NCBI GenBank assembly: GCA_028818995.1
Contig: JAPPMR010000015.1
Coordinates: 1 to 13,294, forward strand
From: Candidatus Poribacteria bacterium
GTDB taxonomy: Bacteria > Poribacteria > WGA-4E > WGA-3G
DNA length: 13,294 nt
Direction: 5' to 3'
In this document: positions 1 to 13,223 of the stretch, piece after piece
How positions within the stretch are numbered: position 1 is the first letter of the stretch
How the letters are laid out: the number at the start of each line of letters is the position of its first letter
Program-made: the position numbers and the translations under genes
Notes under the pieces: generated by a model
Told to the model about the DNA's origin: nothing
What the model saw: only the letters and a program-made list of their open reading frames with translations
The model's database searches: none

Positions 1-1851
1 CTCGGAATACTTTCTGTCCGTGGTGGTGATCGCGAAGATAACATCTACTATTTCGATCGATTGCCATTAGGGTATCCTTATCATCTCTATGGCATTGTTT
101 CTACGGTTAACGCAGAGGTAATTAAAAATATTGAAGTGTATCCAGGTGGATACGGGGCAGAATTCGGTTCCGATTCCCAAGCAGTGATTGATATCTATTC
201 TCGGAATATCACAGATACCCGTTTTGGTAGTAAACTCAATCTCAATTATGTGTATTCCCAAGCTTTTCTGGAGGGAAATATAGGTAAACGCGGATATTGG
301 TACGTATTTGGTCGGCGTAGTTTTATGGGACCGCTTTTTGAGTTAATAACGCGTTTGGTCAAGGTTGATGATGATTTGGTGACACAAGTACCACGTTTCT
401 GGAGCTATCAAGGAAAGTTTGTTTACCAGTTAAGTAAGAACCACAGATTGGTCGTTAATGCTATTGGAGCAGGCGATTCATCTGAATTTCGCCTTGGTCC
501 CAATGAAGTATCATATAGCGATTTGCGTGGTCTCATGAAGTCGGAAAATCCTTTCGATTCACAAGGCATTCATCTCTATTCTGAAAAAGAGAAATCGTTT
601 AAATCTATAGTATCATTGACACGGTCATTTTCTCGTAGATCATTAGAATATGGGGAAGGGTACTCATATCGAAACACGGATAGTGTATTTTCGCTCCGTG
701 GCGATCTTCAATATTGGCTCAAATTTCCGAAGACATTGATTGAATCAGGTTTTGATCTTTCATATCTACCTTCAAGCATCACAAGTATCGGGGCACGACC
801 ACCTGAAGAAGGTGATTGGGATTTTGACTTTAGATTAAAGGCACAAGGAGAGAAAATAGCCACTTTCACATCTAAAACACTGCATCGCCTTGAAGGATAT
901 TTGCAGGCAACGCAAGACCTTGTTTCATCACGTTATGCTGCGCTCTACGCCACCGTAGGCATGCGAGCAAATTACTTTAACCTGATTGACTCGTTTTCGC
1001 TGCAGCCGCGCGGGCTACTCGGTGTGACACTTGGACCAGAGCAACCGAGTACTGTAGGATTATCTCTGCTTCCAGTAGACTTGCGTTTGATGTATGGAAA
1101 TTATGTTCAAAACCCGCGGCTTTATCAAGTCGTGCTTGGAAACGAAAATCCTGAGATTGCAACGAGTTTAGCAAGGCATTATGTTGTTGCATTGGAAAAA
1201 AGATTAACGGCTGAAACAAAAATTGAGGTGGCAGGCTATTACAAAAACCTTAGTGATATGATTACCTTCGATCTATTAGAGAAACGCTACGAAAATCAGA
1301 AGAGCGGATACGTCAAAGGCATTGAAGTTTCCTTGGAACACGAAATCGGAGAAACTTTTCGGGGTTGGCTTGCATATTCTTACACCGTTTCCAAACGCCA
1401 AGATGCACCGCATGAAAAAGAAAGAGATTTTATGTTTGGTACGCCTCACGTTTTCGCAATTAATCTGAATTACGCTCTTGAGTCGTGGGAATTCGGTGCG
1501 AAATGGCAATATAAGAGTGGTGTTTTATATACAACATTGGTTGACAGGGAGATGTATACCAATCCGTTCACAAAAAAACAAACATGGCTGCCTATATGGG
1601 GTGTCCAAAAACGCGCCGCACCGTATCATCGATTGGATTTACGTATTCACTGGTCTCCTATTCTCTTGGAAGATTTTCACTGGTACTTTGTTCGCTTGGA
1701 CAAAGCAAAGGTGGGATTTACTTTTGAACTCTGGAACGCCTATAACCGAAGAAATATCCTACAAGTGCGATATAGTGAACACTTTAGAAAAGAGGTAAAG
1801 ATTGCGCAATTGCCGATAATCCCATTCTTTGCGCTGACCTTGGAATTTTGA
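1..1851 (+). CDS. TonB-dependent outer-membrane receptor, 5' end missing
   Basis: The frame is open from base 1, so the gene starts before the window; 616 residues are visible. The first ~65 residues match the end of a plug domain: an LSVRGGD motif, then a YYFDRLPLGYPYH stretch, then an IKNIEVYPGGYGAEFGS stretch, which is the usual 'R-G-G ... D-G-x-P-L ... V-E-V-x-x-G-G-x-x-A-E-x-G' pattern. The remainder is aromatic, amphipathic beta-strand sequence typical of the 22-strand barrel, and it ends in Phe (residues LTLEF), as expected for a BAM-recognised last strand. Such receptors import a bound ligand across the outer membrane using TonB energy; the ligand cannot be read from the sequence. A tonB gene lies at 7585-8535. 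The true N-terminus (signal peptide, possible carboxypeptidase-regulatory-like domain, TonB box) lies outside the window. Confidence 0.88.
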   Translation, partial: LGILSVRGGDREDNIYYFDRLPLGYPYHLYGIVSTVNAEVIKNIEVYPGGYGAEFGSDSQAVIDIYSRNITDTRFGSKLNLNYVYSQAFLEGNIGKRGYWYVFGRRSFMGPLFELITRLVKVDDDLVTQVPRFWSYQGKFVYQLSKNHRLVVNAIGAGDSSEFRLGPNEVSYSDLRGLMKSENPFDSQGIHLYSEKEKSFKSIVSLTRSFSRRSLEYGEGYSYRNTDSVFSLRGDLQYWLKFPKTLIESGFDLSYLPSSITSIGARPPEEGDWDFDFRLKAQGEKIATFTSKTLHRLEGYLQATQDLVSSRYAALYATVGMRANYFNLIDSFSLQPRGLLGVTLGPEQPSTVGLSLLPVDLRLMYGNYVQNPRLYQVVLGNENPEIATSLARHYVVALEKRLTAETKIEVAGYYKNLSDMITFDLLEKRYENQKSGYVKGIEVSLEHEIGETFRGWLAYSYTVSKRQDAPHEKERDFMFGTPHVFAINLNYALESWEFGAKWQYKSGVLYTTLVDREMYTNPFTKKQTWLPIWGVQKRAAPYHRLDLRIHWSPILLEDFHWYFVRLDKAKVGFTFELWNAYNRRNILQVRYSEHFRKEVKIAQLPIIPFFALTLEF

Positions 1852-1852
1852 T

Positions 1853-2004
1853 TATAGTGGGTTTACAATTATAGTAAATTATGTAAATAAGTTTACATAT
1901 ATTTTGTAGGAGCGATCTCCGAATCGCGACAAAACGACTGGCAGTCGGGAATCGGAGTTCCCTCCTACAGTTCAGATGTCCAGTTAATTGTAGAATCCAC
2001 TATA
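1853..2004. mobile_element. MITE-like element with TATAGTGG terminal inverted repeats
   Basis: The left end (1853-1871) and the reverse complement of the right end (1985-2004) match over about 19 bases with one mismatch and one indel; both begin TATAGTGG. The outermost TA on each side could be a TA target duplication, as for IS630/Tc1-mariner-type MITEs. No ORF lies inside. The left part holds a perfect small hairpin (ATGTAAA 1881-1887 / TTTACAT 1892-1898), and the centre holds the larger palindrome 1905-1969. The element begins two bases after the receptor stop codon. A related copy is at 10985-11085. Confidence 0.7.
1905..1969. repeat. Dispersed palindromic repeat, copy 1
   Basis: Two 26-base arms (1905-1930 and 1944-1969) are inverted repeats with 22 of 26 positions matching and a 13-base loop. 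Each arm contains its own 5-bp hairpin: GCGAT/ATCGC in the left arm and GGGAA/TTCCC in the right. The four mismatches between arms fall at positions paired within these small hairpins. Both arms are identical in the copy at 10985-11050, while the loop differs. Confidence 0.88.
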
Positions 2005-2039
2005 TGCCAATACATTGAAAAAGAAATAGGCAGATACCC

Positions 2040-2117
2040 AAAAGGACACCTACCTAAAAAAGTCCTTCTCTGTTTTACGGTTTTACTGCTTTATCTTTCC
2101 CCACGTTACTTTTTTTG
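2040..2117. repeat. Direct repeat: duplicated 3' tail of the PD40 genes, copy 1
   Basis: This stretch covers the last codons and the downstream flank of the 2075-3019 gene. It matches 3046-3126 over nearly its whole length with a few substitutions. The chief difference is the homopolymer tract, T7 here (2110-2116) and T9 in the other copy. The shared non-coding tail past the stop shows that the two paralogues arose by DNA duplication or were later homogenised by conversion. Confidence 0.85.
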
Positions 2118-3019
2118 TCTTTTGGGGATACAGACAACACATCATCATCTATCCAATCTGGTTGGGAATCATCTACAGCAGGTGTGTTTGTTAGGTTGAC
2201 GATTTTCCCTGTAACAAGGTCATACCGGTAGATCTCATACTTATCGGGATTGCCATGCCGCCCCTTTGCTGAAATCAAGAGGTGTTTGCTACCCATAAAA
2301 CATGCACTATGAATTGACCAATTGTCCGGCGTCTGGACAATCTGGCGTTTGCCCGTTTTGATATTGTGAATCACGGCTTTCTTTGAAACAAGATCACGTT
2401 GCTGATTGAATGTCACCTCATAGTATACAACCGATTGGCTATCGGGAGACCAGCGCGGAGAATAACGCCAATGAAAACGGTCACTTGGGACAAGCGCGCG
2501 TTGGTCGTCTCCGTTGGCACGCATCAGATTGATCGTGAAACCCTCCCGATACGCCATATATTTCCCATCAGGGGACCAAGCCACTGCTGGTTTCATTGAA
2601 ACTGTGCGCGTCAGTCGCTGTAACGCTTTTGTTGCGATATCTATCGTCCAGGCATCGTATTGACTTATGAATACGAGGTGTTTCCCATCCGGCGACCACG
2701 ACGCAATCCCTACGTCATCATCTCCGTCAGTAACCCGAAATTCACCCGTGCCATCGCTATTGATGATGAATATGGCATCCGTAGGCGTTTGCTTTGGTAC
2801 AATCGGTTGCTGTCGCAAAAAAGCGATCTGCTTCCCGTCCGGAGACCAAACAGGCCACATGAGATACCTCCCGTCTACCTTTTTGACTAACATTTTGGGG
2901 TTACGCCCGTCATCGTCCATCACATAAATATCTGAGCCAGACTTAAAAACGATCTTTGCGTATGCCAGCGTTGGTAATAAACATAGCAGGCAGCAGAAGA
3001 TGCTGCGTTGTAAGACCAT
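2075..3019 (-). CDS. Exported PD40 (TolB-like) beta-propeller protein A
   Basis: Encodes 314 residues. The ATG at 3019 is set by GGAGGTG (3024-3030) a few bases upstream. Residues 1-21 form a signal peptide (basic start, a Cys/Leu-rich hydrophobic core, Ala-Tyr-Ala before KIVF), so the protein is periplasmic or secreted. It has repeated PD40 motifs of the WSPDGK type near residues 58, 108 and 149, with a degenerate WSPDSQ near 191, as in the C-terminal propeller of TolB. There is no N-terminal TolB domain and no peptidase domain, so a binding or scaffold role is more likely than catalysis; the ligand is unknown. It lies 70 bp downstream of paralogue B and is probably co-transcribed with it. 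Its last ~10 residues are read in a different frame from the homologous DNA in B. Confidence 0.85.
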   Translation of the reverse strand: MVLQRSIFCCLLCLLPTLAYAKIVFKSGSDIYVMDDDGRNPKMLVKKVDGRYLMWPVWSPDGKQIAFLRQQPIVPKQTPTDAIFIINSDGTGEFRVTDGDDDVGIASWSPDGKHLVFISQYDAWTIDIATKALQRLTRTVSMKPAVAWSPDGKYMAYREGFTINLMRANGDDQRALVPSDRFHWRYSPRWSPDSQSVVYYEVTFNQQRDLVSKKAVIHNIKTGKRQIVQTPDNWSIHSACFMGSKHLLISAKGRHGNPDKYEIYRYDLVTGKIVNLTNTPAVDDSQPDWIDDDVLSVSPKDKKSNVGKDKAVKP

Positions 3020-3045
3020 TATTCACCTCCATTGGACGGATGCAC

Positions 3046-3126
3046 AAAAGGACACCTACCTAAAAAGGTCTGTCTCTGTTTTTACGGTTTTACTGCTTTT
3101 CCTCTCCCCACGTTACTTTTTTTTTA
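3046..3126. repeat. Direct repeat: duplicated 3' tail of the PD40 genes, copy 2
   Basis: Counterpart of 2040-2117. It makes up most of the 70-bp spacer between the two PD40 genes plus the final codons of gene B, and includes a T9 tract (3117-3125). Confidence 0.85.
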
Positions 3127-4112
3127 CCCTGTGGTGAAACGGACAATGTCCCTTCTATCCAGTCTGGATAGCCCTCATTTTCTTCTCCACGTGTCAAGCG
3201 TTTGAGGTTTCGCGTGTTGAAATCGTAGCGATAGAGATCATAATTCGGTTTCGGTGTATCAAGCATCTTTAGGTCGAAAAGCAATGCCTTGTCACTGTCT
3301 ATCCAACACCCGTTACCGACAAGCACACGCAGATCGTTTCCGAGTTTGTCATAAATGTCTTCTATTTGTTGTGCCTTGCCGCGAAGTGTGGCAACGGTAA
3401 GACGGCATAGATGGAAGTCGTTCTCCCACACGCAGTCGTCAAACAAAATACGTTGCCCATCCGCAGACCACCTGGGTAAGAACTTATCAGTAGCCTCGTC
3501 ATCCTGTTTCGGATCAGGAAGAAGGGGACGCTGATCCTCGCCATTCGCTGACATCACATAAATACTTCTGATACCACTGTCTGTAAACTTTTCATAAACA
3601 ATCTGTGTGCCATCAGGCGACCAGTCGGGGGAACCTGCATCTTCTCCACCGTCTTCAATGTCTGTTAGCTGCGTGACGTGCAGCGTCGCAAGGTCTATGA
3701 CATGCACCTCCCATCTTCCACTTCGCACACTACTAAAAGCGATTCTTTTGCCATCAGGCGACCAAGACGAACCGGTATCCAAGACATTGTTGTCAGTGAG
3801 ACGTTGGACGTTCGTTCCATCTGCGTTCATGATAAACAACTCAGACGAGGATTGTCTTTTCTTGTCTATTCGTCGAGTAAAGGCAATTGTTTTGCCATCT
3901 GGCGACCAGCGGGGGTGTTTGTCTTTTGACACTGTGTTTTTTGTGAGCCGTCGTCTGCCACTGCCATCATCGTTCATCACGTAAATGTCACTTTCTATAC
4001 AGAAGACAATTTTCGCATCAACAACAGACGTACCTAACAAGAGCAGACAACAGATGAAGAAAATGATAATGACCTGGATATGTGAGAGCACAAATGGTCT
4101 TAGACGTTTCAT
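3090..4112 (-). CDS. Exported PD40 (TolB-like) beta-propeller protein B
   Basis: Encodes 340 residues from the ATG at 4112. This start is preferred over an upstream TTG at 4133 because AGGAGGT (4121-4127) stands 8 bases before the ATG and the TTG has no such site. Residues 1-33 are an export signal with a long hydrophobic core ending VVDA before KIVF. WSPDGK motifs follow at intervals (RWSPDGKTIAF, SWSPDGKRIAF, DWSPDGTQIVY, RWSADGQRILF), giving a PD40/TolB-like propeller, with a DLYRYD...PDWIEG ending shared with paralogue A. It is probably extracytoplasmic with an unknown ligand. It sits between a small exported EF-hand-type protein and paralogue A in one leftward cluster. The tail reads VTWGEEKQ and then stop. 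Confidence 0.87.
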   Translation of the reverse strand: MKRLRPFVLSHIQVIIIFFICCLLLLGTSVVDAKIVFCIESDIYVMNDDGSGRRRLTKNTVSKDKHPRWSPDGKTIAFTRRIDKKRQSSSELFIMNADGTNVQRLTDNNVLDTGSSWSPDGKRIAFSSVRSGRWEVHVIDLATLHVTQLTDIEDGGEDAGSPDWSPDGTQIVYEKFTDSGIRSIYVMSANGEDQRPLLPDPKQDDEATDKFLPRWSADGQRILFDDCVWENDFHLCRLTVATLRGKAQQIEDIYDKLGNDLRVLVGNGCWIDSDKALLFDLKMLDTPKPNYDLYRYDFNTRNLKRLTRGEENEGYPDWIEGTLSVSPQGKKKVTWGEEKQ

Positions 4113-4120
4113 CGGTGGAT

Positions 4121-4127
4121 ACCTCCT
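4121..4127 (-). promoter_or_regulatory. Ribosome binding site that fixes the start of PD40 protein B
   Basis: On the minus strand this reads AGGAGGT, 8 bases before the ATG at 4112. It excludes the longer reading from the TTG at 4133, which would place the site inside the coding region. Confidence 0.85.
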
Positions 4128-4146
4128 ATGCAAGGGAGCATTTTAG

Positions 4147-4177
4147 ACAAGCGATACGAATACACCGCATCGCTTGT
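4147..4177. repeat. Perfect 9-bp hairpin between the small exported gene and PD40 B
   Basis: ACAAGCGAT (4147-4155) and ATCGCTTGT (4169-4177) are perfect inverted repeats around a 13-base loop. In leftward transcripts it would lie between the stop at 4213 and the next ribosome site. The minus strand has no U-run after it, so it is a weak terminator candidate at best. It could be an mRNA-processing or stability hairpin that sets relative expression. Confidence 0.5.
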
Positions 4178-4212
4178 GTTTCTATTTGATAGAGGGTTAT
4201 TTGAGCTTAACC

Positions 4213-4719
4213 TCAAAATCGCTCAATATCAAATCTAAGGTAGGCGGACGAGCCGAAATCATCCTTCTCATCGAAATTGCCATCACCATCAAAATCGAAT
4301 TTCAACTCTAAACTAACGCTTCCGTTTGCAATGTACCACCCTCCTCTTGCGCCTGTCATATCAATATCTATAGAAGGGAAAAAGGATTTCGACTCACCTG
4401 CTGGTACCCATCCCTTGTCTGGATCAGATTTCTCTCTAAACGTAGTTCTCCCCTTCCTCTTCACAATGAGTGAGGCAGATAAATAGTATCGAACAGATAT
4501 ATCACTGTAATTCCAAATGTTCGCATACGCACCAGTCTTGACGAAGGGTTCAGAATAAGAAATACCAAGCGAAGTCTGTGCATCAACATTGTTGATAGTT
4601 TTATTGTCATGGTCGGCGTGATGATCTGCGGACAGGTTCATTGAGAGTAAACAGATTGTCCAAAAAAGCATCATCAGTGCCAAAAGAAAAGCGTTGCGTG
4701 GTAAAAGTTTACCGATCAT
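4213..4719 (-). CDS. Small exported protein with one EF-hand-type calcium loop, unknown function
   Basis: Encodes 168 residues from the ATG at 4719, preceded by GGAGG (4725-4729) with 5-base spacing. A TTG at 4731 overlaps that site and is rejected. Residues 1-31 form a signal peptide, followed by a His/Asp-rich stretch (ADHHADHD). The middle is probably beta-rich, with several S/T/Y strands. Residues 142-153 read DFDGDGNFDEKD, with Asp at loop positions 1, 3, 5, 9 and 12 and Gly at 6, which fits an EF-hand or dockerin-type calcium loop. Only one loop is seen, so it is not a complete dockerin or paired EF-hand. I do not recognise a named family. It is first in the leftward cluster with the two PD40 proteins, so a shared envelope or extracellular role is plausible. 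Confidence 0.72.
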   Translation of the reverse strand: MIGKLLPRNAFLLALMMLFWTICLLSMNLSADHHADHDNKTINNVDAQTSLGISYSEPFVKTGAYANIWNYSDISVRYYLSASLIVKRKGRTTFREKSDPDKGWVPAGESKSFFPSIDIDMTGARGGWYIANGSVSLELKFDFDGDGNFDEKDDFGSSAYLRFDIERF

Positions 4720-4833
4720 AATTTCCTCCAAATAAAGTTGACATGCTTTGATAGCATATCATAAAGTTTATCGGGTTCCCTATCCTTGTTCGGTAGACCT
4801 TCCACCGGCTTAATAAAGAGTCGGGCACCCTGG

Positions 4834-4903
4834 CGATCAAACCATAAACTCCTCAGCAAAATGTTGAGAAAGGGTACCCATTCTGAAGTTTATGTTTTGA
4901 TCG
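4834..4903. repeat. Long inverted repeat in the leftward leader
   Basis: Arms 4834-4856 and 4883-4903 are inverted repeats of about 21 bases with one mismatch and a 2-base gap, around a 26-base loop that contains GGGTACCC. If the promoter at 4912-4940 is right, the leftward transcript starts near 4905 and this stem-loop would be its extreme 5' end. Confidence 0.75.
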
Positions 4904-4911
4904 TTAAAGGT

Positions 4912-4940
4912 ATTATACAACAAATTGCAAAGAAAGTCAA
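4912..4940 (-). promoter_or_regulatory. Sigma70-type promoter for the leftward PD40 cluster
   Basis: On the minus strand TTGACT (4940-4935) is followed after 17 bases by TATAAT (4917-4912). This predicts a start near 4905 and a leader of about 185 bases before the ATG at 4719. Confidence 0.6.
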
Positions 4941-4957
4941 ATGGAAATTTGTATAAT
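4925..4957 (+). promoter_or_regulatory. Possible promoter for the DUF5916 gene
   Basis: A perfect TATAAT lies at 4952-4957. The best -35 match is TTGCAA at 4925-4930, but the 21-base spacer is too long, so the -10 is the main support. It overlaps the leftward promoter, so the two would compete for polymerase. Confidence 0.35.
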
Positions 4958-5010
4958 CCAATTAGCCCCCTTTTTCGTCTTTATATTTAATGGGTTATTT
5001 TCTGTGCAAA

Positions 5011-5015
5011 GGAGG
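5011..5015 (+). promoter_or_regulatory. Ribosome binding site selecting a TTG start
   Basis: GGAGG lies 8 bases before TTG 5024-5026. No ATG is better placed, and the signal peptide begins directly after this TTG. Confidence 0.8.
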
Positions 5016-5023
5016 CAACGCTT

Positions 5024-7255
5024 TTGGATCAACATCTATTTTCTTTCCCGTCCTTTCCAAAAATCAGAATTATATCACTCATTTTACTATTTTTATTCGT
5101 TGTTGCTTCCACTGTGAGTCCCGAAACACCAGTTACCGAAGTTAAAGCGTACCGTACTTATGAGAGTATTGAGATTGACGGTGATCTCACCGAATCGGAT
5201 TGGCAAAAAGCAGAGCCGATAAAAAGGTTCATACAAATTGAGCCGCATGAGGGTGAAGTCAGTTCTGAACCGATGGAAGTGCGAATCCTATACGACGACA
5301 AGAATATCTACTTCGGATTTATCTGTTTTGACTCAGATATGTCGAAACTTGTTGCAAACGAAATGCGTAGAGATGCACGCGACATACACGAAAATGATAA
5401 CGTATTTCTGCTATTGGATACATATAACGACAAACGGAGCGGTTTCTTCTTTCGCGCGAATGCATTGGGCGCAATTCAGGACAGAGCAATAACGAATAAC
5501 GGAGATACGCTCAACGGTGACTGGGATGCTGTTGTGGCATGTAAATCGAAAATAAACGATACATCATGGACAACGGAGATCAGTATTCCATTTAGCCAAC
5601 TCCGTTTTAAGAAAAGTGACCCAATGAGTTGGGGTATGAACGTTGGTCGTGAACTCATACGAAATCAGGAAGAGATGATATGGGCACCTGTGCCTGCTTC
5701 CTACGGGGGTTTGGCAAAATATAGAACGACGAATCTTGGCACGCTTAGTGGTCTCAAAGGAATTACGCCGTCTCGGAATTTGGAATTTCTTCCCTATTTT
5801 CTACCCGGTATTACCCAAGAGAACAATGACGCTGCTGCACTTGAAACTACACGCCAATTCAAACTTGGGTTTGATGCGAAATACGGCATTACCTCTAACG
5901 TAATCGCTGACATCACCTATAACACTGATTTTGCACAAGTTGAGGCGGATCAGGAACAGGTAAATCTCACTCGTTTCAGCCTCTTCTTTCCAGAAAAAAG
6001 ACCATTCTTTTTGGAAGGGGCAGGACTCTTCGATTTCGGCGTACCTCGGCAGAGTTTTCGGAGACCTCCGCCGATGCTACTTTTTTATAGTCGGCGTATT
6101 GGGTTAGCCGAAGGAAACGCTATTCCGATCATCTTCGGTGGAAAAGCCAGCGGCAAAATCGGTTCTTATGGAGTCGGTTTCCTTAATGTTCTTACAGATG
6201 AATTTTACGATGAACCGGCAGAGGACGATCCGATTGATATTCCGCGCACCAATTATTCTGTCATCCGAGTTACAAAGGATGCTGCAGCAGGAACACGTTT
6301 CGGCATGATTGCTGTCAATAAAGACGAATTCGGCAATTATAACCGTGCGGGTGGGTTTGATTTTGAATTTCGTCCAAGCGATAGACTTGATGTGCGCGGG
6401 ATGTGGGCACGCACCTTTTCACCTGATATGTCTGGGAAAAATAACGCCTGGTACTTCGGCACGCGGTGGCGGAATGACATCTTGCGACTCGGAGGATCTT
6501 ACACCGATATTGACGAAGATTTCGATCCTGCGGTAGGATACGTCCGGCAAACAGGGATGCGCCAAATGCGAACTGATCTTCGTTTGACACCCAGACCGAA
6601 TAAATATGGAATTCGTGAAATTTGGTCGGGACCAGAGGCAAACTATATCCTCACCCAAGATAATGAATTGGAAAGGTGGAACTTATCCTATACCCACTGG
6701 ACATCATTTGCTACAGGCGACTCTATTATGCTTTTTGCGAGGCGTATGTTTGAACGACTTGACGAAGATTTTGAAATTAGAGAGGATGTGGTCATCCCAA
6801 TTGGGGATTACCAATACAGCATCGTTGGGGGAAGGTTTTCAACGAGTGATAGCCGTGTTATTAGTACAACGACAGGTTTTGAATTGGGGAACTTTTATAA
6901 CGGTCAAATTCGCAAATTTTCTGTTGATGGATCTCTGAAACCGAATGGACGAATCAGTCTACATTTAGACTACGAATTTAATCGTGTTAATCTACCCGTA
7001 GGTGATTTTGATGCTAACCTTTTCTCAGGTAGGTTCTACTACTCGTTTTCAACAACCCTGTTTGCTAAGATGTTTGCACAATGGAATACAGAGACAAACC
7101 TCGTGTCAACTAACTTTCTTGTCAATTACATTTATCGTCCGGGGAGCGATTTCTATTTTGTTTTCAACCAAACTTATGACACTGACAAGACGACAAAGAC
7201 AAGATTCCTAAATTCTACGGTGGTCGCGAAAATGACGTTTTGGTGGAATCCGTAA
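5024..7255 (+). CDS. DUF5916 outer-membrane protein with N-terminal CBM9-like domain
   Basis: Encodes 743 residues and starts at TTG. Residues 1-34 form a signal peptide (hydrophobic run ILLFLFVVAS). Residues ~40-210 match the CBM9-like sugar-binding fold: IEIDGDLTESDWQKAEPI at the start, then the YDDKNIYFGFICFDSD strand pair, then a DNVFLLLDTYNDKRSGFFFRANALGA segment. Residues ~220-743 match DUF5916, with the hallmark stretch YNTDFAQVEADQEQVNLTRF and then FFPEKRPFFLEGA, followed by amphipathic strands that probably form an outer-membrane barrel. Other members are linked to carbohydrate use, but their biochemical role is not established, so no substrate can be given. The gene is monocistronic by spacing and divergent from the PD40 cluster. 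The C-terminus FWWNP is not the usual final Phe. Confidence 0.87.
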   Translation: MDQHLFSFPSFPKIRIISLILLFLFVVASTVSPETPVTEVKAYRTYESIEIDGDLTESDWQKAEPIKRFIQIEPHEGEVSSEPMEVRILYDDKNIYFGFICFDSDMSKLVANEMRRDARDIHENDNVFLLLDTYNDKRSGFFFRANALGAIQDRAITNNGDTLNGDWDAVVACKSKINDTSWTTEISIPFSQLRFKKSDPMSWGMNVGRELIRNQEEMIWAPVPASYGGLAKYRTTNLGTLSGLKGITPSRNLEFLPYFLPGITQENNDAAALETTRQFKLGFDAKYGITSNVIADITYNTDFAQVEADQEQVNLTRFSLFFPEKRPFFLEGAGLFDFGVPRQSFRRPPPMLLFYSRRIGLAEGNAIPIIFGGKASGKIGSYGVGFLNVLTDEFYDEPAEDDPIDIPRTNYSVIRVTKDAAAGTRFGMIAVNKDEFGNYNRAGGFDFEFRPSDRLDVRGMWARTFSPDMSGKNNAWYFGTRWRNDILRLGGSYTDIDEDFDPAVGYVRQTGMRQMRTDLRLTPRPNKYGIREIWSGPEANYILTQDNELERWNLSYTHWTSFATGDSIMLFARRMFERLDEDFEIREDVVIPIGDYQYSIVGGRFSTSDSRVISTTTGFELGNFYNGQIRKFSVDGSLKPNGRISLHLDYEFNRVNLPVGDFDANLFSGRFYYSFSTTLFAKMFAQWNTETNLVSTNFLVNYIYRPGSDFYFVFNQTYDTDKTTKTRFLNSTVVAKMTFWWNP

Positions 7256-7293
7256 TCGAAACTTAATTCTAAGACTTACGCACAAGTTTACAC

Positions 7294-7330
7294 CGTAGGT
7301 CGGGTTTCACTTCGCTCTACCCGACCTACG
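7294..7330. repeat. Perfect palindrome with 12-bp arms
   Basis: CGTAGGTCGGGT (7294-7305) and ACCCGACCTACG (7319-7330) are perfect inverted repeats around a 13-base loop (7306-7318). The DUF5916 stop is 39 bases upstream. No U-run follows on either strand, so it resembles a dispersed REP-like unit more than an intrinsic terminator. Confidence 0.85.
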
Positions 7331-7350
7331 ATTAGTACAAAAATAAAAAG

Positions 7351-7379
7351 TTGACATATACATTTAAATATGCTATAAT
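7351..7379 (+). promoter_or_regulatory. Near-perfect sigma70 promoter with extended -10 for tonB
   Basis: TTGACA (7351-7356), a 17-base spacer and TATAAT (7374-7379), with TG-C directly before the -10 (7371-7373) forming an extended -10. The predicted start is near 7386, about 200 bases before the tonB ATG. Confidence 0.82.
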
Positions 7380-7572
7380 TTATACTTAATCAGATCTGTT
7401 AAGGAAAAAATTAGTTTATCTCTGGAAAATGGCATTGATATCTGTTATACTATGATGTGAAGATAGACGTTTTAACGAAATCTTAATTAACGACTCTATC
7501 GATTTACAAACTATCTCATAAACTCCGGTAAGTGTGTTGAATGCGCGCTATCGACATCACGAGATAAATTCT

Positions 7573-7578
7573 GGGAGG
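7573..7578 (+). promoter_or_regulatory. Ribosome binding site that fixes the tonB start
   Basis: GGGAGG lies 6 bases before ATG 7585. It excludes an in-frame GTG at 7534, which has no such site. Confidence 0.82.
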
Positions 7579-7584
7579 AAAGAG

Positions 7585-8535
7585 ATGAGTAGAAGTTCCG
7601 ATATTGTATACCAAATCCAACATCGTCGGGCAGAACGGAAAAAACCGAAGATAAATGCTCAATTGAAGAAAGTCAGTATTGATGAAAGTCAAAAAGGTGG
7701 GATTACTGCCGCACAAGGAAGTAAACCGCCACCGATAACCGTGCAGAAAACAGGTGGTCGTAATTCAGTTGCTTTAACGCTTTCTGTCGGGCTGCACGTT
7801 GCCATCGCTTTGTTACTTGGGTTTCTATATATTAAAGACCAAATTGCAGCCGAAAGTCAGCAATTTGCAGCCGCGTTCGTCCCTCAAGAACCGCCCCAAA
7901 GAGAACGCGCTAATATTAAGGCACGCCCTCGTGTGAGATTTGATGCTAAGCCGCAAGAAATAGAAGCACCGATTAAACGGACGACGGTGACGAATCCAAA
8001 TATCCGACGGACACCAGATGATTTTGAGCTTCCGACCGCACCTGAGACAGATTTAGGTACCATAGGACCATCACTTGAAGGACCAAGAGTCAAAGCGATT
8101 CCGAAAGGTTTGAGAGGGCCTGTGCAACCCACACAACCCACAGTAAAACCTACATTTGAGAGACCTGCACAGGAAAGTTCTTCGCTTGATGATCTGACTG
8201 ACACTACCAAATTAGATGGCGGACATACTTTAAAAGTCCCTGAAATTGATACGAAGCAACCAGGGTCTTCACCACCTAAGGCTAAATATGCACCGGAGCC
8301 AACTTATCCGAAAAACGCTAAACGTGCGAACAAGGAAGGAACCGTGACGTTAGAAGCAACTATCGGAAAAGATGGAGTTCCCAAAAATATTGTTGCGTTA
8401 ACAAGCATTGGATTCGGTTTTGAAGAGGCAGCAATTGCAGCTTTGAAAAAGTGGAGATTTATTCCAGCTAAGGAAAAAGATAAAGATGTTGAAAAGAAGG
8501 TTAAATTAGATATAGTGTTTACGTTGGACGACTAA
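7585..8535 (+). CDS. tonB: TonB energy-transducing protein
   Basis: Encodes 316 residues. TonB is anchored in the inner membrane with ExbB/ExbD and passes proton-motive energy to outer-membrane receptors. The membrane anchor is at about 61-83 and contains SVGLH (S67, H71), the S-x3-H pair of the TonB transmembrane helix. A Pro/basic-rich periplasmic linker spans ~95-235. The C-terminal TonB domain (~235-316) begins PEPTYPKNAKRANKEGTV and ends ALKKWRFIPA...KLDIVFTLDD, as in the family. An unusual feature is the ~60-residue Lys/Arg-rich cytoplasmic extension before the anchor; E. coli TonB has only about a dozen residues there. No exbB or exbD is in the window. The receptor at 1-1851 is a possible client. 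Confidence 0.9.
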   Translation: MSRSSDIVYQIQHRRAERKKPKINAQLKKVSIDESQKGGITAAQGSKPPPITVQKTGGRNSVALTLSVGLHVAIALLLGFLYIKDQIAAESQQFAAAFVPQEPPQRERANIKARPRVRFDAKPQEIEAPIKRTTVTNPNIRRTPDDFELPTAPETDLGTIGPSLEGPRVKAIPKGLRGPVQPTQPTVKPTFERPAQESSSLDDLTDTTKLDGGHTLKVPEIDTKQPGSSPPKAKYAPEPTYPKNAKRANKEGTVTLEATIGKDGVPKNIVALTSIGFGFEEAAIAALKKWRFIPAKEKDKDVEKKVKLDIVFTLDD

Positions 8536-8621: not shown

Positions 8622-9428
8622 CTAACGAATTTTTAGTAGTCCTTTAGCTGCAAAATTCCGAATTAAAGTGACTATAGATTGCCGCGCAGTTTCACTGAGT
8701 TGTTTTTGCTCAAATGTGAGTTGCGCGGTTTCTGATTCCAAAGTTTCTGCTTGTGTAGTTGACATGTTTTCAGAGAATCTATCCTGAATTGCAGGTGAGG
8801 CTTCGTTCAGGGCAAGTGCTAAGGTGTTTGGCTCTAAAACTTGCAGAAGCGTAAGAATCGCTTCATCAGACACCTCAGCAAGGTCCTCAAATGTGAATAA
8901 GTGATCAGCAACGGTGTTAGTTAATTCAGGTTGGCTTTTTTGCAGTGCCTCCATAAGTTGGTTCTGTTTTTCAAAATCAACTTGTGCGAGGAATTTTGCG
9001 ACGTTTTTTGCTCCGTTACCAAAAAATAGTGTGCTTTGTAGTATACCTTGTATTGTGCCGACGAGATCATTCCAAATCTGTTCTGCCCGTGAGGTCTCAA
9101 TCATCTCAGTTATCGCTAAATGTTCAGCAATGCGAACCTGTCTCTGAATTGGGAATGCTGCGAAAACTTCTTGGGCAAAAGCGGTAAGTGTTCCTTCTGA
9201 CTGCTCTTTAGATGTCCCTTCTTCCCCAGTACGAGCGAGTGTTTTCCGAATCTCATCAGAACTCTCTGATGGAACTTTGCTGGTTGCAATATCTAACAAC
9301 AATAAGAATACAGCGATGTCTGCATCTTCTACCTGCTCAAATGCTTGCATAATTACAGGCAACGGTGTTTTCTGAAATAAATCAGTTAGTTCTTGAAGTG
9401 AATCTTCATTTAAGAATGGCGCGGACAC
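8622..9428 (-). CDS. FliG-like protein (FliG M and C domains) lacking torque-helix charges
   Basis: Encodes 268 residues from GTG 9428; AAGGAG (9441-9436) lies 7 bases upstream. No signal peptide or membrane segment is seen, so it is probably cytoplasmic. Residues ~175-268 fit the FliG C-terminal domain: FTFEDLAEVSDEAI, then LALALNEAS, then DRFSENMS...AETLESE, ending LIRNFAAKGLLKI. Against E. coli FliG (recalled from memory) this region aligns without gaps at an offset of 56. Residues ~85-170 resemble FliG M, including an NGAKNVAKFL counterpart of the GGV linker. Torque residues K264, R281, D288, D289 and R297 correspond to N208, T225, S232, E233 and Q241, so only one acidic residue remains. 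The EHPQ motif that contacts FliM is not seen. The start lies inside the purM end (19-base overlap), suggesting translational coupling. A flagellar role is unlikely; the actual role is unknown. Confidence 0.75.
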   Translation of the reverse strand: MSAPFLNEDSLQELTDLFQKTPLPVIMQAFEQVEDADIAVFLLLLDIATSKVPSESSDEIRKTLARTGEEGTSKEQSEGTLTAFAQEVFAAFPIQRQVRIAEHLAITEMIETSRAEQIWNDLVGTIQGILQSTLFFGNGAKNVAKFLAQVDFEKQNQLMEALQKSQPELTNTVADHLFTFEDLAEVSDEAILTLLQVLEPNTLALALNEASPAIQDRFSENMSTTQAETLESETAQLTFEQKQLSETARQSIVTLIRNFAAKGLLKIR

Positions 9429-10456
9429 AACTCAACTCCTTTGTCTCCTGAAACTATATCTCCCAGTAGGAACGCCGACTCATCCGATTCGCTTAATGAT
9501 TCCAAAGTTGTCGAAAGGGAATCAGAGGAGACTACTAAAACTATTCCAACCCCCATATTGAAAACTTGATACATTTCTACTTCTTCTACACTCCCTTTTT
9601 GCTGGAGTAAATTGAAAATGGGTGGAACTTCCCAACTTTGTTTCTGGATTACTGCTCGGCACCCTTCAGGTAGAATTCGTTCGACATTTCCGGGCAATCC
9701 CCCTCCTGTAATATGCGCAATTCCTTTGACTTCACACACCTCACAGAGTTTCAGGATAGATTTGACATAACTTTTGTGTGGTTTCAACAGTTCGTCTCCG
9801 ACTGTTGATGGCAGTTCAGGAAGATAAGTATCTACGTCGTAGTTACAACGGTCAAATAAAATGCGTCGTGCAAGCGAATACCCGTTTGTATGTAATCCAG
9901 TTGAGGCTAAACCGATTAACTTATCTCCATGTGTAATTCTATCTCCTGTAATCAGTGCGTCTCTTTCTACAACTCCTACGATTGTTCCTACCAAGTCGTA
10001 TTCTCCTGGCGCATAAAAACCAGGAAGTTCTGCTGTCTCTCCACCGATTAACGCACAACCAATTTCTCTACAGCCCGAAGCAAGTCCTGTAATAATCTGT
10101 TCAAAAACCAACGGTTTCAGTTTTCCGATGCCGATATAATCTAAAAAGAAAAGTGGTTCGGCACCCTGCACAACTATATCATTACCGCAATGTGCAACAA
10201 TATCATACCCTACGGTATCATGTTTGTCAGCTTGGAAGGCAACCTTCAACTTTGTGCCGACACTATCCGTGCTTGAAACAAGAATAGGTTGTTTATATTT
10301 CCCAAGTGCGAATAAGCCACCGAAACTTCCTACGTTGCTGAGAACTTCGGATCGATACGTGGTTTCCATGATTCCCCGTATCCGGTGCATAGCCCTGGAT
10401 TCTGCTTCAAATGACACACCTGCATCGGCATAGGTCAAAGGTTTGGTATCTGTCAT
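9410..10456 (-). CDS. purM: Phosphoribosylformylglycinamidine cyclo-ligase (AIR synthetase)
   Basis: Encodes 348 residues, the normal PurM length. It converts FGAM and ATP to AIR, ADP and phosphate, the fifth step of de novo purine synthesis in the cytosol. It starts TYADAGVSFEAES and has DSVGTKL near 64-70, GNDIVVQGAEPLFFLDY near 91-107, the GGETAELPG signature at ~138-146 and GGGLPGN later, all PurM hallmarks. The ATG at 10456 has a modest AGGA (10467-10464) 7 bases upstream. It lies 26 bp after the two-TM gene and overlaps the next gene by 19 bases. purF is further upstream on the same strand. Confidence 0.97.
   Translation of the reverse strand: MTDTKPLTYADAGVSFEAESRAMHRIRGIMETTYRSEVLSNVGSFGGLFALGKYKQPILVSSTDSVGTKLKVAFQADKHDTVGYDIVAHCGNDIVVQGAEPLFFLDYIGIGKLKPLVFEQIITGLASGCREIGCALIGGETAELPGFYAPGEYDLVGTIVGVVERDALITGDRITHGDKLIGLASTGLHTNGYSLARRILFDRCNYDVDTYLPELPSTVGDELLKPHKSYVKSILKLCEVCEVKGIAHITGGGLPGNVERILPEGCRAVIQKQSWEVPPIFNLLQQKGSVEEVEMYQVFNMGVGIVLVVSSDSLSTTLESLSESDESAFLLGDIVSGDKGVELCPRHS
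9436..9441 (-). promoter_or_regulatory. Ribosome binding site inside the purM 3' end
   Basis: AAGGAG on the minus strand, 7 bases before GTG 9428. It supports an overlapping start for the FliG-like gene within the last codons of purM. Confidence 0.7.
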
Positions 10457-10482: not shown

Positions 10483-10893
10483 CTAAATTTTTGGACCAAG
10501 AAATTTGGTATTTGCATCTTGTGTTTTGGATTTCTCTGATTGTGCCCTATGGCGCACGATTAATCCTTTCAAAAGACTAACGACTAAAAAGAAAACGGTT
10601 ATGATGATGGCACCAAGGATTCCATAATACTGTGCATCTTCTTCTGGCATGTCAGGTCTCACATTTTGAATTACAATAGGAAGCAGCCAATGCAAAATCA
10701 TACCGAGAATAGAATACATTAAGACTATTTTTAACGTAGACGTACCTTGCGCCGTCCCGAGCGAACCTCGCAACATTTCACTCATTCCACTTCTTGCCCT
10801 TGTAGTGTTGTGGCGACCTTGCAAAGTTCTTCTCGGAGAATTCTTTTTTTTGTTTTGGTTTGGTGGCACGTACGGTGGGGGAATAAATACCAT
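10483..10893 (-). CDS. Two-TM membrane protein of unknown function
   Basis: Encodes 136 residues. A Pro-rich and strongly basic N-terminal region (PPPYVPPNQNKKK, residues 5-17, then many Arg) is followed by two hydrophobic segments at ~54-77 and ~90-112, joined by an acidic loop (PDMPEEDAQ), and a charged tail. By the positive-inside rule both ends would be cytoplasmic. The ATG at 10893 has AGGA (10904-10901) 7 bases upstream. It ends 26 bp before purM, so co-transcription is likely. I do not recognise a family, and a purine role is not evident. Confidence 0.72.
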   Translation of the reverse strand: MVFIPPPYVPPNQNKKKNSPRRTLQGRHNTTRARSGMSEMLRGSLGTAQGTSTLKIVLMYSILGMILHWLLPIVIQNVRPDMPEEDAQYYGILGAIIITVFFLVVSLLKGLIVRHRAQSEKSKTQDANTKFLGPKI

Positions 10894-13194: not shown

Positions 13195-13223
13195 AGTATA
13201 TCATAGTGTCATAAATATGTCAA
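13195..13223 (-). promoter_or_regulatory. Sigma70-type promoter for the leftward membrane-protein / purF unit
   Basis: On the minus strand TTGACA (13223-13218), a 17-base spacer and TATACT (13200-13195). The predicted start is near 13188, giving a leader of about 27 bases before ATG 13161. Bases 13224-13294 beyond it show no supported feature. Confidence 0.75.

Follow-up and report, generated by a model that had tools for sequence, protein, structure and literature searches.

Why does a relative of the flagellar rotor protein FliG stand at the end of a purine operon, and what may it do there? The stretch of DNA analysed here (the window; 13,294 nucleotides), from a sponge-associated bacterium, has its nearest named records among Candidatus Poribacteria MAGs, and the nearest genome compared (G001) carries the FliG-like gene at 96% identity. 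In total 97 related genomes were searched; f1 denotes the family of G001 (57 genomes). As the initial annotation had remarked, there are no flagellar genes nearby, the neighbours in the window being a purine operon and a tonB-family gene (Table 1).

A FliG relative encoded behind purM

The initial annotation had aligned the C-terminal end of the protein to the C-terminal domain of FliG. Pfam confirms this assignment (FliG_C, E 2.6e-23), and so does the predicted structure, for which the middle and C-terminal domains of FliG are the best matches. The predicted model aligns to FliG residues about 102–324 and begins near FliG residue 100, and both the FliG middle domain (ARM_M) and the FliG C-terminal domain are present in the protein. 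Pfam, PDB sequences, Foldseek and VIA all rank FliG first; the unrelated helical-repeat family that might have matched better was not found in any of the four.

In common with FliG (Pfam FliG_M PF14841, FliG_C PF01706; TIGR00207) the protein has the middle and C-terminal armadillo domains and the FTFEDL and LALAL landmarks, whereas it differs by lacking the N domain and the EHPQ motif, by having almost no torque charges, and by its non-flagellar locus. It does not reach the cut-off of the NCBIfam fliG equivalog (73.8 bits vs 226.7), nor the Pfam cut-off for MgtE_N (PF03448; 16.6 bits vs 25.9). The N domain of the MgtE magnesium channel is a far weaker match than FliG, and no other MgtE domain was found in the protein; where a relative bears the precomputed label MgtE_N, as some do, FliG_C is always labelled too.

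Table 1. Positions of the FliG-like gene, its operon and associated features (window coordinates unless a locus is named)
Feature	Position	Strand	Remarks
FliG-like gene, 268 aa	8622..9428	minus	FliG middle (ARM_M), ARM_C and C-terminal domains; no FliG_N
FliG_C match, residues 160–266	8631..8951	minus	Pfam, torque columns; spans the former torque helix region
purM (AIR synthase), 348 aa	9410..10456	minus
Overlap of purM 3′ end and FliG-like 5′ end, 19 nt	9410..9428	minus
Shine-Dalgarno-like AAAGGAG	9436..9442	minus	inside purM, 7 nt before the GTG start
Small protein, 136 aa	10483..10893	minus	two predicted membrane helices; just before purM
purF-like amidophosphoribosyltransferase, 481 aa	11089..12534	minus	GATase domains; Pribosyltran only at E 0.055
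Hydrophobic protein, 181 aa	12616..13161	minus	several predicted membrane helices; first operon gene
Sigma-70 type promoter TTGACA-17-TATACT	13195..13223	minus	upstream of the operon; same place in relatives
tonB-family gene	7534..8535	plus	convergent with the FliG-like gene; outside the operon
Small membrane-protein gene, all loci	window 10483–10893; L003, L010, L062, L063, L065, L067, L069, L072, L074, L096–L098, L100, L103, L104, L106, L108, L111, L112

Reading from the promoter, the operon encodes the 181-residue membrane protein, PurF, the 136-residue protein, PurM and, as its last gene, the FliG-like protein. Of 9 other f1 loci tested, 8 show the promoter pattern at the corresponding place; since a promoter scan counted 16 matches, close to the 13.5 in shuffled sequence, it is the conserved position, and not the scan, that supports this promoter. 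No riboswitch was found in the window by Rfam at gathering cut-offs. Within purM, 7 nt ahead of the start codon of the FliG-like gene, AAAGGAG or AAGGGAG is found in the 15 loci nearest to the window, of which 13 are distinct (L039 being a repeat of L005 and L041 of L010). Altogether 24 start sites were examined, of which a loose Shine-Dalgarno test flagged 18, the start codon call being uncertain in distant loci. The translation of purM and of the FliG-like gene is probably coupled.

Beyond the operon, the tonB side of the locus (window 61–8535; L002–L011, L110–L114) is conserved in f1, and DUF5916 and TonB-receptor-like genes often come after the convergent tonB. Ahead of tonB, at window 7351–7379, lies a full-consensus sigma-70 promoter (TTGACA-17-TATAAT, with TG before the second box), and two adjoining PD40 beta-propeller genes occupy window positions 2075–4133, where relatives differ in such genes.

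Lost flagellar contacts and family-specific conserved positions

In the flagellum the N-terminal domain of FliG binds FliF, its EHPQ motif binds FliM, and its charged torque residues face the stator. The claim that the five torque residues are replaced in the window protein proved exact against FliG of E. coli MG1655, the reference for the torque columns: positions 264, 281, 288, 289 and 297 read N208, T225, S232, E233 and Q241. The EHPQ motif, also said to be missing, has VEDA in its place.

The same pattern was followed in 144 relatives of the protein (P0001–P0117, P0120–P0140 without P0139, plus seven loci), a set picked by score and not by purM linkage, which includes near-duplicates and fragments and leaves out the fragment G080_L078. 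No more than one of the five torque charges, counted by the right sign, is kept in 131 of the 144 relatives, whereas all five are present in 108 of the 117 canonical FliGs. Position 264 is H in 90, Y in 40 and N in 6 relatives and is rarely charged (R 4, K 1); position 297 is Q in 120 of the 144. EHPQ is found letter for letter in 51 of the 117 canonical FliGs, with a near form in most others, and does not figure in the list of the 15 commonest motifs of the 144 relatives. Columns 1–95 of E. coli FliG, which correspond to the N-terminal domain, have a mean occupancy of 0.19 in the relatives against 0.95 in canonical FliG, and the FliG_N matches that Pfam reports in some relatives overlap the M region.

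All three flagellar contacts (FliF, FliM and stator) are gone or changed, and the ARM_C and C domains are conserved. Torque-charge loss alone is not decisive for a lost motor function, since some FliGs encoded beside fliF also miss charges, reading KKSNK in G059 (L027) and G062 (L026), KSYRR in G076 (L036) and KTYRR in G080 (L043). Taken across the family, the data confirm the observation more strongly than it was first put, and they support the view of the initial annotation that the protein is a real FliG derivative in which the fold was kept and the motor interface lost.

The former torque segment has not just worn away, being about as conserved in the FliG-like family (2.75 bits) as in canonical FliG (2.64 bits). 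The best conserved parts of the family are C1-3 and the last helix (3.06 and 3.18 bits), and family-specific residues include Q243, T247, S251 and K262. These observations suggest a new surface. Alignment A1 took in 104 of the 119 proteins P0001–P0119.

Distribution, linkage to purM and descent

FliG_C was detected in 54 of the 57 f1 genomes, with one match each; in G037 the gene was hidden by an antisense ORF in the neighbourhood listing and was recovered by the FliG_C search. The retained FliG_C fold might suggest that the protein still serves as a rotor component, in a flagellum that escaped detection or in another rotary motor. This is extremely improbable, as FliM, FlhA, FliF, FliN/FliM-C and MotB, the profile families searched, were each found in 0 of 57 f1 genomes, while the same searches were positive in four flagellated control genomes and in other Poribacteriota; for the window organism this absence rests on its kinship with the f1 genomes. 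Proteins of the MotA/ExbB family occur in 57 of 57 f1 genomes. No flagellar set that would have the FliG-like protein as its sole FliG was found in f1.

Outside f1, G060 has the FliG-like gene and no flagellar match, and six genomes (G059, G062, G064, G071, G073 and G075) combine flagellar genes and a FliG next to fliF with the FliG-like paralogue; the fliF-adjacent FliG of G075 contains an in-frame stop in the assembly. We considered a pure remnant of flagellum loss and rejected it on account of these flagellated relatives. Since these six carry the gene in addition to a canonical FliG, it is an older paralogue that predates the loss of flagella, and to regard it as a stand-in for a lost flagellar FliG gives an incomplete picture.

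In a profile search 8000 candidates were scored, of which 330 matched at E ≤ 0.001. Among the best 120 of these 330, 22 FliG-like entries score at least 229 bits and are followed by FliG entries of at most 152 bits; within these 120 no FliG-like entry is named from another phylum, only 2 of the 22 being named at all. Three relatives (P0013, P0091, P0138) are labelled "flagellar motor switch protein FliG" by a source. A FliG_C match in the genome of a sponge symbiont should not be taken as evidence of flagella.

In all f1 genomes in which both genes were matched (53 of 53), purM is the gene just upstream, in the same orientation. Of the other four f1 genomes, G004 has its FliG-like gene truncated at a contig start, and three match neither FliG_C nor a true purM; as no purM exceeds the cut-off in these three, the locus is probably missing from their assemblies. 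The same pair occurs outside f1 in G059, G060, G062, G064, G071 and G073, so that 59 of 60 genomes with both genes located keep them side by side. The exception is G075, whose purM sits on a different contig and whose FliG-like gene comes after purF, a small membrane-protein gene and a gap. The genes of G073 run purF, membrane protein, purM, FliG-like gene, purH, coiled-coil gene and purD. The pair of purM and FliG-like gene is intact also in G059, G062, G064 and G071, although purF there has been inverted, falls outside the stretch or is set apart by genes on the opposite strand.

The small protein encoded before purM (in G075 after purF) is found in most lineages examined, mostly with two predicted membrane helices and in L103 with only one; in G082 (L105) none was noted ahead of purM. 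As it precedes purM also in lineages without the FliG-like gene, its gene is the older one at the locus.

Neither FliG_C nor any of the flagellar families searched was detected in f2 (2 genomes), g7 (6 genomes) and G072, all of which have purM, and no FliG-like gene was seen in the purM loci of three f5 genomes and of the f9 and f10 genomes. In the flagellated G070 a truncated N-terminal remnant is left (L107 683–943), which overlaps the 3′ end of purM. Left aside for the purM locus were G074, where the contig ends, and G077 and G078, which gave no true match to purM. PurM can hence work without the FliG-like protein. These loci, and the parting of the two genes in G075, would also fit a helical adaptor that descends from FliG, serves some purpose in the cytoplasm other than purine synthesis and stays behind purM for the sake of operon expression. 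We regard such a passenger as possible, if less probable than a role in the purine pathway: adjacency to purM is kept in all genomes with both genes located save one, and it outlasts the break-up of the operon in the four genomes mentioned.

The purM-linked FliG-like proteins form one clade (UFBoot 98), with the inner order f6, f8, f3, G071, G060, f1. The tree broadly follows taxonomy; G060 and G071, both of f4, do not group, and G060 falls with f1. An origin from the FliG of the same phylum was put to the test with this tree, which has long branches and a midpoint root and does not settle the place of the clade among canonical FliGs; P0146 is the nearest entry. On phylogenetic grounds, the data fit one capture with mostly vertical descent and several losses. 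Further short FliG paralogues are found off the fliF clusters at L061 8166–8870 (G059), L064 7917–8594 (G062), L076 7677–8495 (G078) and L077 7608–8432 (G079), those of L061 and L064 adjoining an ORF of about 2165 aa. In the tree these copies of G059/G062 and G078/G079 branch with FliGs from their own genus or family and are separate events.

The truncated copy in G070 and the absence of FliG_C from g7 and f2 could be read as signs of a decaying relic of flagellar FliG. We consider decay very unlikely, as the gene is retained in nearly all f1 genomes, coexists with a fliF-adjacent FliG in flagellated kin, and shows a dN/dS of 0.12–0.16 against three relatives and 0.26 against the closest; a fifth comparison, with L010, was too saturated to yield a ratio. 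The corresponding values for purM are 0.10–0.20. Purifying selection and the linkage to purM, both with and without flagella, indirectly support the initial proposal of a new job for the protein, a proposal which had missed the purine-operon context.

Possible role of the FliG-like protein

We tentatively favour a role as a cytoplasmic adaptor or scaffold, derived from FliG, for PurM or for its neighbours in the purine pathway. In an ancestor shared by several Poribacteriota families, a FliG paralogue cut down to its middle and C-terminal armadillo domains would have been captured by the purine operon, at the position just downstream of purM. Features for binding FliF, FliM and the stator would have been lost in lineages that were still flagellated, and the gene would have been kept after the family of the window had lost its flagella. 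As purM is the most constant neighbour, PurM, or an adjacent step, is the first candidate partner; the contact itself is putative, as operon neighbours need not interact. A metagenomic ORF of 346 aa (P0139) fuses the C-terminal domain of PurM to the FliG-like protein and is the sole such fusion found. It was set aside as evidence for contact, being a single case that may be an artefact, with about 20 PurM and 13 FliG-like residues missing at the junction.

The protein might moreover self-assemble via the domain-swap surfaces that FliG uses for rings. According to PMC11087270, the D3 and D4 armadillo motifs of FliG interlock between neighbours in the C-ring by domain swaps, and an oligomeric scaffold is hence a reasonable guess. 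It is conceivable, though we hold it to be unlikely, that reused C-ring armadillo units build a ring or filament which organises PurM and the de novo purine enzymes as a bacterial purine metabolon, perhaps tied to the membrane via the small membrane protein.

The convergent tonB gene points in another direction, that of an adaptor of envelope energetics which docks on an ExbB/TolQ-type motor and serves tonB and the outer-membrane genes. Motors of this type are relatives of the flagellar stator, and their family is represented in every f1 genome. Moreover, tonB lies convergent downstream in all 14 f1 loci with sequence there, at a distance of 4 to 1270 nt in the 13 loci measured. However, the stator-facing charges are gone, the TonB of the window is unmatched in 7 loci outside f1, and tonB and the FliG-like gene are on opposite strands; we thus regard an envelope role as improbable, clearly more so than the passenger discussed above.

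For the favoured role with PurM, as for any non-flagellar or purM-linked FliG, no report was found in the literature searched, which included PMC7355467 and PMC11087270; as it covered few subscription papers, this is weak evidence of absence. The locus documents a rotor protein that left the flagellum: it occurs in swimming lineages too, is under purifying selection in a family whose flagellar genes are lost, and is tied to a metabolic gene. It offers a concrete system for how motor parts get reused, and a candidate partner for PurM.

The same phylum holds other proteins derived from FliG_C outside the fliF cluster, namely fusions of 403–450 aa to a cyclic-nucleotide-binding (cNMP) domain (L068 3025–4236 in G070; L073 126–1478 in G074), on which nothing was found in the literature searched. 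They differ from the FliG-like protein by this domain, by MotA/MotB neighbours in G070 and G071, and by having no link to purM. The fusion gene of G070 stands directly before MotA and MotB, and a partial FliG_C piece at the contig end in G071 (L070 8393–8731) is likewise followed by MotA and MotB. Such fusions possibly represent a rotor or stator device controlled by cNMP.
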